IMG/VR virus record: IMGVR_UViG_3300047476_001256
Coordinates: 1 to 58,432 of that record
Strand: one strand, 5' to 3'
DNA: 58,432 nucleotides
Origin: a virus
Shown: positions 40,958 through 44,515 of the stretch, one piece after another
How positions within the stretch are numbered: position 1 is the stretch's first letter
Layout: the number at the start of each line of letters is the position of its first letter
Position numbers and translations under genes: made by a program
The notes under the pieces: model-generated
Told to the model about the DNA's origin: nothing
What the model saw: only the letters and a program-made list of their open reading frames with translations
The model's database searches: none

Positions 40958-41025
40958 TTGCGGGGCTAGGAGTCGAACCTAGGACACTCGGCTTATGAGA
41001 CCGGTGGGAAACCATTCTCCCCGCA
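40958..41025 (-). tRNA. tRNA-Met(CAT), compact D-arm
   Basis: Loop CTCATAA; perfect acceptor TGCGGGG / CCCCGCA; T-arm CTAGG-TTCGACT-CCTAG; short D-arm (total 68 nt). Not a classical initiator (no GGG/CCC anticodon stem), but could fill that role. Confidence 0.8.
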
Positions 41026-42065: not shown

Positions 42066-42139
42066 GCGCTTTCCGAGAATTACGATATCTCGACCCCATC
42101 ATTAACAGTGATGTGCTCTGCCTCTGAGCTAGGAAAGCG
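42066..42139 (-). tRNA. tRNA-Asn(GTT), expanded T-loop
   Basis: Loop CTGTTAA; acceptor CGCTTTC / GAAAGCG; T-stem CGAGA / TCTCG but with a 9-nt loop TATCGTAAT. Lacks the CA end. First tRNA of the array. Confidence 0.75.
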
Positions 42140-42147
42140 TATATAAC

Positions 42148-42180
42148 AAAAAAACCCCTAACTTTTTTATCAGTTAGAGG
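42148..42180 (-). terminator. Terminator upstream of the tRNA array
   Basis: CCTCTAAC / GTTAGGGG stem with TTTTTTT on the minus strand, 9 bases before tRNA-Asn. Either the array has an unrecognised promoter or it is reached by read-through. Confidence 0.72.
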
Positions 42181-42213
42181 TCTTTTAAATATTGTTTATA
42201 AAACTATTACATT

Positions 42214-42333
42214 TTATCCTACATCCGTATCCTCTAACTTATCAATTCTATCTTGTGAATTAAACATACTAATGCCCGCCCACACCTTAAGTGTCGGTTG
42301 ATAACAATTTGTATGTAAGTTAAAGTTTTTCAT
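42214..42333 (-). CDS. Possible small protein (39 aa)
   Basis: MKNFNLHTNCYQPTLKVWAG then SQDRIDKLEDTDVG. ATG and TAA frame a 39-codon ORF between the long RNA unit and the terminator. Plausible but short; it could also be part of a non-coding RNA. Confidence 0.35.
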   Translation of the reverse strand: MKNFNLHTNCYQPTLKVWAGISMFNSQDRIDKLEDTDVG

Positions 42334-42370
42334 CGTTAATATATATAATCTTTTTATAAATAATGTTAAA

Positions 42371-42442
42371 AAAGTAATTTAATTTCAAAATACGCCACGT
42401 CAAGTCATGCTCCGGTTATTATCAGCCTCATCAAATTACTTT
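42371..42442 (-). terminator. 3' terminal stem domain of the giant RNA
   Basis: Perfect AAAGTAATTT / AAATTACTTT stem enclosing a ~52-nt core with GATGAGGCTGATAATAACCG, followed by TTT on the minus strand. It could end the giant RNA or be a separate small RNA. Confidence 0.5.
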
Positions 42443-42665
42443 TGATTAGTACAAACAGGTTTTAACGGGAGGCGATAAACCTTCATAGTGTACTGCTATC
42501 TAAATCGGTAACATATATCGTCTTTATTACATTTTTCACGAAAAATCCTCCCAAAAACGCTCATTACCAATTTTATTTTTTCGTTAATATCTTTTAGGTC
42601 TTTTAAACGATTTGACGGTTGAATAAGAAACCGCCGGAAATGTCGACCACGAAAATCTTCGTATT

Positions 42666-42763
42666 GAGCGGGGCCATAGAATCGAACTACATCCTCTCAC
42701 CTGGATCGGTAAGTGTGCTATCCCGTGGGTAAACCCGCGTGGAACCATTACACCAACTCCGCT
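42666..42763 (-). ncRNA. Embedded tRNA-like domain with D-loop hairpin (98 nt)
   Basis: Acceptor AGCGGAG / CCCCGCT (one mismatch), D-arm opening GGTGTAATGG and T-loop TTCGATT are tRNA-like. A 23-nt hairpin insert (42721-42743, TCCaCGcGGG / CCCaCGGGA) sits in the D-loop, and the anticodon stem CTTAC / GTGAG closes an 8-nt loop (CGATCCAG), so no codon can be assigned. No CA end. Confidence 0.5.
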
Positions 42764-43679
42764 TATAAATGGATGAGAATACTCCATTGGGAGAACTAGC
42801 TTTAGAAAGATTATTTGTTTCCTTTCGTTTCCACTACCTTTTGAGTAGTACCAATTCAATGTGGATGATTTAAGACTATCAGTCTTTAAGTTGCCGATTA
42901 CTCTCTCATTACTCCGCTTCTTCAAATCTGCCGACCTGATTAAACCTTGCGAGTCTAGAAGTTTTTCGTAAGAATCACAGACCTCTTGCGGAGGTATCGT
43001 GGCAAGGAACAACTCCCTACTATGTACACACCTTTCATCTGCAACTGGTAAACACTTAAGCTTAATTTTTATTGAATTTTGATAAATGCAAATCAAATTG
43101 AGTTTTAGTTTATAGAATTATTCAGGTAGCGGTTTACCACTAGCTCCCTCATCTTTTGAACGAGAGAATACTAAACTACCCGATGCAGTATCCCTACTGC
43201 GGTTTTTTAAGTCATCTTCAGTTATAGGTTTTGGTAAACTCTATAAGAGGATGGTAACAACACCACTTGTACACTATCTTATCTCGCGTCCTTTCGGATG
43301 GCTTGATGTTAAGATAACTTTCAAACTGAATACCGCAATGATGTAGAGGGATTAAGTCTACACTTCTTACTGATATTCTATGGGTTATTCTTATTGTTGT
43401 TCCCAACTCAGTCGGAGTATCTATACTACCCCAACCATTCCCACTATTCACCTAAAGTGTTACCCTCAACTACTTTAGCGAGAATGATATCCCACTTGCC
43501 TACTCAAGTTATTCTCTCCTTACGGGGAGAGTAACCGCAGATACACCACTTAAGTATATCCACTTTATCCTACTTTCGTAGTTTATTTGACCACCATAGG
43601 CGGCGGTTGTTTACTTTGTGAGTAGAAACTCACTTTGTAAAGATTTCAATATTTTAAAGAACTTTTCTTTCGGTTTTAA

Positions 43680-43711
43680 TAAATATACGAATAATTTTTT
43701 TTATTGCCAAA
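43680..43711 (-). promoter_or_regulatory. Host-type promoter TTTGG-N19-TATATTTA for giant RNA
   Basis: TTTGG at 43707-43711, TATATTTA at 43680-43687, spacer 19. Confidence 0.75.
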
Positions 43712-43782
43712 TATTTTTAAAACTTTTTTTGTAAATTTGATAACGAGTATCTTTCATCACCTATTGTTTCTCATTTACTTAT

Positions 43783-43814
43783 GTAATATACGAAACATTT
43801 TTAACATTACCAAA
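43783..43814 (-). promoter_or_regulatory. Host-type promoter TTTGG-N19-TATATTAC
   Basis: TTTGG at 43810-43814, TATATTAC at 43783-43790. Its ~70-nt transcript region (43712-43780) has no obvious product beyond a possible 18-codon ORF. Confidence 0.65.
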
Positions 43815-43834
43815 TTTATTTTCAAAAAACTTTT

Positions 43835-43918
43835 AAGATAATTGGTATCCGGCTTTCTTAAGAGCTTGAGCCCCGCACATAGTCGGTTTTATTACTATTG
43901 GCTTCAACCAATCATCTT
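43835..43918 (-). ncRNA. Small RNA H with 11-bp terminal stem (84 nt)
   Basis: AAGATGATTGG / CCAATTATCTT terminal stem (one G-U) encloses a core with GGGGCTCAAGCTCTTAAGAAAG. Own promoter at 43923-43954 and a TTTTTTG run after the stem. A 15-codon ORF (MCGAQALKKAGYQLS) lies inside; whether it is translated is unclear. Confidence 0.55.
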
Positions 43919-43922
43919 AAAT

Positions 43923-43954
43923 GTAAGATACGATAATTTTTTCAAACTACCAAA
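43923..43954 (-). promoter_or_regulatory. Host-type promoter TTTGG-N19-TATCTTAC
   Basis: TTTGG at 43950-43954, TATCTTAC at 43923-43930, spacer 19. Starts small RNA H. Confidence 0.68.
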
Positions 43955-43968
43955 TCTTTTTTATTTTA

Positions 43969-44039
43969 ATAATAATTGAAATGTTATACATTTTACGGGC
44001 GTCTTATTTTTACTTAGTCTACTCTCCCACAATTATTAT
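43969..44039 (-). ncRNA. Small RNA I with 5S-like sequence (71 nt)
   Basis: Perfect ATAATAATTG / CAATTATTAT terminal stem enclosing TGGGAGAGTAGACTAAGT and GACGCCCGT. The 5' part GTGGGAGAGTAG resembles the 3' strand of loop E/helix IV of Bacteroidota 5S rRNA. Its promoter is at 44077-44108. Ribosomal-protein binding is speculative. Confidence 0.5.
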
Positions 44040-44076
44040 ATTTTTAAAGAACTTATCATTGTTTCCTTTGATATAT

Positions 44077-44108
44077 CAAATATACGACAAATTTTTCAAT
44101 CTACCAAA
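44077..44108 (-). promoter_or_regulatory. Host-type promoter TTTGG-N19-TATATTTG
   Basis: Perfect consensus: TTTGG 44104-44108, TATATTTG 44077-44084. A palindrome half-site is at 44130-44142. Confidence 0.78.
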
Positions 44109-44129
44109 TATTTTTTTAAATCATTAGAA

Positions 44130-44142
44130 ATCAATGAGTTAT
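44130..44142 (-). repeat. ATCAATGAGTTAT half-site next to the tmRNA end
   Basis: One half-site; its last base is the first base of the tmRNA 3' CCA complement. Could be involved in termination or in control of the 44077-44108 promoter. Confidence 0.5.
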
Positions 44143-44515
44143 GGTGGAGATGAGCGGAGTCGAACCGCTGTCTTACTAGAAATCAATAATATCAGCATCT
44201 CACATGTTTATTCAGTTATTCACAACTGACAAATATATAAGTTTTTACATTTCGTTATAATCAATGTTTTGACTCGATTTAGGGTTCAGTCAATTTTCCA
44301 CCTTTATAGCTACTTCTGTTACTAGGCGTATGTAGTCCGGCCCTATTGTTTGAATTAGGCTGCTACAGCGTAATCCATACCTACAAACGCCATTAAATCG
44401 TTGTAAGTCATAGTTGACATTTCGTCATTTATTGTTTTGCAAGTATTTTAAGACATTCTTACTTTGTCTACATGTGATATTACCATTTACATAGCAATCA
44501 ATTCCATACATCCCC
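44142..44515 (-). ncRNA. ssrA: tmRNA (ssrA), 374 nt
   Basis: 5' GGGGATG pairs over 7 bp with 3' CATCTCC, followed by ACCA. T-arm AGCGG-TTCGACT-CCGCT is perfect. The internal reading frame ends TYNDLMAFVGMDYAVAA then TAA (44355-44408), with the AVAA end that ClpXP-type proteases recognise. The resume codon is not certain. It rescues stalled ribosomes and tags their products. Own promoter at 44554-44585. Confidence 0.88.

Follow-up and report, generated by a model that had tools for sequence, protein, structure and literature searches.

The GOLLD RNA forms a 14-mer cage and is often encoded near tRNA islands, sometimes with tRNAs in the linker (PMC12286853), and a pseudo-tRNA has been reported inside a mycobacterial GOLLD (PMC6582537). 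The ends and the maturation of this RNA appear undefined in natural phages. Elsewhere, tRNA-like elements are known to mark RNA ends. In human cells, mascRNA follows MALAT1 at its 3' end and menRNA follows MENbeta; both combine a longer anticodon stem with a compact loop and have an elbow that RNase P reads (PMC11693755). Release of an RNA at both of its ends has been achieved with t-elements, RNase P and tRNase Z (PMC4326828). Here we describe a tRNA-like element that adjoins the 3' edge of a phage GOLLD. In our literature search, neither a non-decoding tRNA-like element at this edge nor an alternation between such elements and terminators was described; the original GOLLD description was outside the scope of that search, and an earlier mention of 3'-adjacent tRNAs is possible.

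The window, a virus record of 58,432 bases, carries the element, GOLLD, a tmRNA and a tRNA array, all on the minus strand. The conserved 3' domain of GOLLD (RF02032) was found at 42770..43183 with a score of 287.3 bits, above the curated gathering score of 150, and the match spans the entire Rfam model (1-416 of 416). The variable 5' domain would occupy approximately 43184..43675, limits that we deduced from where the promoter lies and the 3' domain begins. The best-scoring promoter-like site, of the Bacteroidota type (TTTG ... TATATTT), is located at 43682..43711 and, judged by its sequence, is the likely start of the GOLLD transcript. The tRNA-like element itself covers 42667..42762 (G1 to U73, 96 nt), as assigned from its cloverleaf fold, its sequence and its relatives. 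Because G1 lies 7 nt past the 3' end of the Rfam match, the element adjoins the giant RNA at its 3' edge instead of lying inside it. The original prediction had placed a tRNA-like domain within the long RNA; the cloverleaf proved real, and its location had to be revised.

The element is positioned between GOLLD and an array of 23 tRNAs called by ARAGORN. The sole terminator-like site 3' of GOLLD on the same strand within 42100-44200 is at 42149..42186; there is none directly behind the element, and this first one follows ~480-500 nt downstream. A 3'-terminal tRNA-like structure of the plant-virus type forms the very 3' end of its RNA; here the first terminator-like site, a predicted and not a mapped end, is ~480 nt further on. 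The tRNAs already reported with GOLLD, whether in arrays, in linkers or as a pseudo-tRNA, surround the same host RNA (PMC12286853, PMC6582537), but the window's element differs from them in its place at the 3' edge, its non-standard form and its alternation with terminators.

Other features share this strand upstream. A phage-encoded tmRNA (44515-44142, minus strand) has the tag DEMSTMTYNDLMAFVGMDYAVAA, and similar tmRNAs are present near GOLLD in relatives; in phage DSS3_MAL1, a permuted tmRNA is found downstream of GOLLD. Between 43680 and 44600 on the minus strand we observed a run of similar Bacteroidota-type promoter-like repeats (TTTGGTA ... TCGTATATTTG), which stand upstream of the tmRNA, of short unassigned stretches, and of GOLLD.

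The minimum-energy fold of 42772-42664 is a cloverleaf with a D-loop hairpin and a 6-bp anticodon stem, and fold and covariation together place all four arms (acceptor, D, anticodon and T). Both stems that had been predicted to be well formed do form. The T arm (TGTAG-TTCGATT-CTATG, 42675..42691, minus strand) has two wobble pairs, a canonical loop and the elbow residue C56; the acceptor (GCGGAGT/GCCCCGC) falls short of that description, with five Watson-Crick pairs, one U-G pair and one A-C mismatch. The D-stem (GTGT/GCAC) closes a D-loop of 31 nt, compared with 7 nt in most relatives. Within it, the hairpin CCACGCGGGTTTACCCACGGG (42722..42742, minus strand) follows G18-G19 in the variable 20a part of the loop. 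This hairpin, which was part of the prediction, is present in the minimum-energy fold at a length of 21 nt instead of 23 nt, the excess of the D-loop being 24 nt. The D-arm, U73 and UCC would class the element as Gly(UCC) type. ARAGORN called no tRNA at the element, and the Rfam tRNA model (RF00005) gave no match in 42150-44140 even at E-values up to 10. The folding energy of the window's element alone is unexceptional (z = -0.92) and not significant, so the case for more than chance rests on comparative evidence.

By analogy, mascRNA and menRNA appear to be the closest parallel. In both cases a long structured non-coding RNA (MALAT1 and MENbeta/NEAT1 in human cells, GOLLD here) is immediately followed by a tRNA-like element, and a longer anticodon stem and a compact loop are combined with a kept elbow. 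Examined by the features that define mascRNA-like and t-elements, the GOLLD element delimits the end of a non-coding RNA and keeps the acceptor/T stack and the 19-56 elbow. The differences are also clear. MALAT1 and MENbeta are human nuclear RNAs for which processing by RNase P and RNase Z is proven, whereas for the GOLLD element we infer it. Unlike their human counterparts, moreover, the GOLLD elements resemble particular tRNA isotypes, and the window's copy has a full D-stem and a D-loop hairpin.

The anticodon arm (CTTAC-CGATCCAG-GTGAG, 42696..42713, minus strand) has the 8-nt loop that had been predicted. No U precedes UCC, and the two ends of CGATCCAG, C and G, can pair; with C32-G38 paired, the effective stem is 6 bp and the loop 6 nt. 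We observed C32-G38 in 17 of 17 Gly-type elements compared with 5 of 727 other tRNAs with 7-nt loops from the same contigs. All five exceptions are themselves Gly-type, and at least three of them (L139, L140 and L141) are tandem second copies of the element. Glu-type elements show a corresponding loop closure (CTTTTCAG, CTATTCAG and CTTTTCGG). The loops of elements measure 6, 7 or 8 nt, and 727 of the 733 other tRNAs of these contigs have 7 nt; U33, present in 714 of 727 other tRNAs, is often absent from elements. An 8-nt loop closed by C32-G38 and lacking U33 suggests that the window's element no longer decodes.

These loop data bear on whether the element could be a working but unusual tRNA-Gly, with an altered loop that protects it from anticodon nucleases and with a place beside GOLLD that it owes to the tRNA arrays. 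Most Gly-type members do retain UCC, U73 and G1-C72/C2-G71, some have a normal 7-nt CTTCCAG loop, and anticodon-loop changes that escape nucleases have been described for phage tRNAs (PMC10264068). Those phage tRNAs share the altered loop with the element but are functional, whereas the elements show a changed loop length and closure together with decay of other arms. The 8- or 6-nt loops, the missing U33 and the invariant C32-G38 are difficult to reconcile with decoding, as are T-loops changed to AGCGAAA or GGCAGCA in several relatives (with C56 retained) and minihelix relatives that have no anticodon arm at all. In addition, ARAGORN identified an ordinary tRNA-Gly(UCC) already in the array (41568-41496, loop CTTCCAA). 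We therefore regard a working tRNA-Gly as rather unlikely.

Selection on the shape was examined in an alignment of 17 Gly-type elements with padded columns, from which the D-loop insert had been removed in the rows of the window and L143. Standard pairs made up 95.4% of cells, and double-sided changes numbered 65 compared with 21.7 in shuffles; as the alignments include relatives, these cell counts are not independent events. The anticodon stem was 100% paired, and all five of its standard pairs change on both sides. The elbow pair 19-56 is G-C in 16 sequences and A-U in one, and its compensation is thus supported by a single sequence. In the minihelices (n = 12), the acceptor was 100% paired with four compensated pairs.

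This covariation already disfavours a functionless, decaying tRNA pseudogene from the array, an explanation that we consider very improbable. It would accommodate the acceptor mismatch and the altered loops, and the pseudo-tRNA inside a mycobacterial GOLLD, which is without detectable expression, offers a precedent (PMC6582537). However, compensatory changes occur throughout the stems, the Gly and Glu types have the same C32-G38 closure, D-loop hairpins recur in separate lineages, and the element and terminators nearly exclude each other behind GOLLD, as the following counts show.

In four large phage contigs related via a neighbouring gene, and in LR756502, a tRNA-like element is found ~15 nt or less behind GOLLD. 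To estimate its frequency, 91 distinct GOLLD 3' ends were collected by a pattern in the last GOLLD helices, blind to downstream sequence, and sets gathered for their downstream sequence were excluded. An automatic call required an acceptor and a T arm; a variant without the T-loop requirement was dropped because of its poor separation from shuffles. At 26 of the 91 ends, a tRNA or tRNA-like element begins 8-21 nt after the conserved TCTCA. Background rates were 0.05% in shuffled flanks and 0.8% (14/1820) at random places in the same contigs. When bacterial genomes were scanned for GOLLD with a near-identical collecting pattern, 57 of 59 matches were due to chance and served as a negative control, with elements at none of them (0/57); both real matches have a downstream tRNA. 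The three matches of a first GOLLD pattern (L002-L004) were not GOLLD and were discarded.

Intrinsic terminators were detected within 110 nt in 41-42 of the same 91 ends. Only one end scored for both an element and a terminator, and its tRNA call, 183 nt long, is spurious. This near-exclusion gave a Fisher p of 2.9e-8, a value that is too strong since the sequences are related. The automatic call found neither feature at 23 ends (about a quarter); inspected by eye, several of these are tRNA-like (e.g. L053, L073 and L133) or have terminators (L061 and L125).

The elements at this site are of several kinds. The Gly type comprises the window and about 18 others, the Glu type includes L010, L052, L077, L101 and L279, and the Met type is represented by, for example, L036, L063 and L065. 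A minihelix type lacks the anticodon arm and consists of an acceptor and a T arm only; the sequence that links them, AATGGTTA, is apparently a D-loop remnant. Altogether, Gly, Glu, Met, Asp, Phe and Ser types were all found at the same site behind GOLLD, and different isotypes at one place suggest that the tRNA shape is what counts. Cultured phages also provide examples, each 10 nt downstream of GOLLD: an annotated tRNA-Asp in Acinetobacter phage Herod and, in Streptococcus phage Javan636, a tRNA whose anticodon is UUA (2574-2651 of its contig). A second UUA-anticodon tRNA was seen directly behind GOLLD in contig L205; as if for reading UAA, these two may be real suppressors or decayed tRNA-Lys. 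Some members, of the Met and Asp types, resemble ordinary tRNAs, and part of the pattern is therefore accounted for by closeness to tRNA arrays. The idea of a reused tRNA scaffold, as first put forward, finds good support in the recurrence at one site in many phages, the covariation, the closed loop, the minihelices and the near-exclusion with terminators.

We consider it reasonably probable that the tRNA-Gly-derived, non-decoding element is a processing signal of the GOLLD transcript, with RNase P acting at the GOLLD 3' end. A structural or processing role within the long RNA had been proposed; processing is the best reading of the present data, for an element that lies 3' of GOLLD. Transcription would proceed from the promoter at ~43700 through GOLLD and the element and stop ~500 bases later at the 42149 terminator. 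With the G19-C56 elbow and the acceptor/T stack intact, the element would fold as an L, and RNase P would cut 5' of G1, so that GOLLD has a defined 3' end ~7 nt past its last helix. A cut 3' of U73 would be made by RNase Z or trimming nucleases. The D-loop hairpin is placed where the length of the D-loop normally varies, and the elbow need not be disturbed by it. A cleavage signal would explain why the distance is short and fixed, why elements alternate with terminators and why the isotype does not matter, and also why the acceptor, the T arm and the elbow survive and why minihelices occur.

Some observations do not fit this proposal well. The A-C mismatch in the acceptor of the window's copy speaks against a processing role, and the anticodon-stem covariation exceeds what a pure RNase P substrate should need. 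The UCC kept in most Gly-type members could mean that glycylation still matters. Charging or a protein partner would be compatible with both the retained UCC and the strong anticodon-stem covariation.

Alternatively, the element could remain attached to GOLLD, either as a structural domain or as a tRNA mimic tethered to the RNA cage, e.g. in glycylated form or in complex with a tRNA-binding protein. Consistent with this, the entire cloverleaf is under selection, including the anticodon stem, synthetase identity positions are largely kept in the Gly and Glu types, and it has been proposed that the cage carries tethered tRNAs as cargo (PMC12286853). However, the intact acceptor/T stack and elbow make the element a likely RNase P substrate, and the window has no terminator right behind the element to make it the 3' end. 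Many GOLLDs end in a terminator at this place, which indicates that GOLLD does not need the element as a domain. Permanent attachment therefore seems unlikely to us.

Returning to processing, we propose more tentatively, at somewhat below even confidence, that these phages have a dedicated class of non-decoding tRNA mimics, characterized by the C32-G38 closure and sometimes a D-loop hairpin, that sets the GOLLD 3' end (in LR756502 perhaps both ends) via tRNA-processing enzymes and would be the phage counterpart of MALAT1-mascRNA. The t-elements of archaea and plant mitochondria likewise have a tRNA-like form and direct RNase P and RNase Z to the ends of an RNA (PMC4326828), and by description their reduced form resembles the minihelix class; unlike the elements reported here, they are without link to GOLLD. 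In bacterial Y RNAs, too, a tRNA mimic is built into a non-coding RNA as one of its modules; Rfam gave no Y RNA match here. An element that alternates with terminators would offer a directly testable answer to how GOLLD ends are defined, and a possible reason for the location of GOLLD in tRNA arrays. If true, the proposal would also provide a viral example in which RNase P requirements could be dissected across many natural variants, minihelices among them.

D-loop hairpins are not confined to the window. Contigs L143 and L344 have the same insert with two bases changed, and the stem, with one mismatch, is preserved in both versions. We rejected a repeat or an assembly artefact as the source of the hairpin, which is single-copy in the window and present in these two other contigs. 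In the huge phage LR745206 (L279), a Glu-type element behind GOLLD (fold z = -3.05) combines an 8-nt loop with a D-loop hairpin unlike the window's. Apparently identical elements flank GOLLD in this contig (LR745206.1, about 1165-1262 and 2627-2722), and a third tRNA-like element with another hairpin is found further downstream. In a second huge phage, LR756502 (L005), a longer D-loop insert is part of a Glu-type element just upstream of GOLLD, and a plain element followed by a terminator lies just downstream. The separate hairpins in relatives of the window and in huge phages indicate that such inserts have more than one origin, always at the position following G18-G19. They are most simply read as tolerated insertions.

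Finally, we noted further features 3' of the element. Between it and the terminator, a conserved stretch with complementary ends, AGTAATTTGATGAGGCTGATAATAACCGGAGCATGACTTGACGTGGCGTATTTTGAAATTAAATTACT (42440-42373, minus strand), recurs 3' of GOLLD in several relatives and has no Rfam match. A small open frame of 39 aa, MKNFNLHTNCYQPTLKVWAGISMFNSQDRIDKLEDTDVG, follows at 42333-42214 (minus strand); similar small frames are present behind AGTAATTTGATGAGGCTGATAATAACCGGAGCATGACTTGACGTGGCGTATTTTGAAATTAAATTACT-type stretches in relatives and often start with MK.L.LHT and end with LEDTDVG. Further downstream, at 40958-41025 on the minus strand, a tRNA-Met-like gene with a short D arm scored 33.4 bits in Rfam and was not called by ARAGORN.
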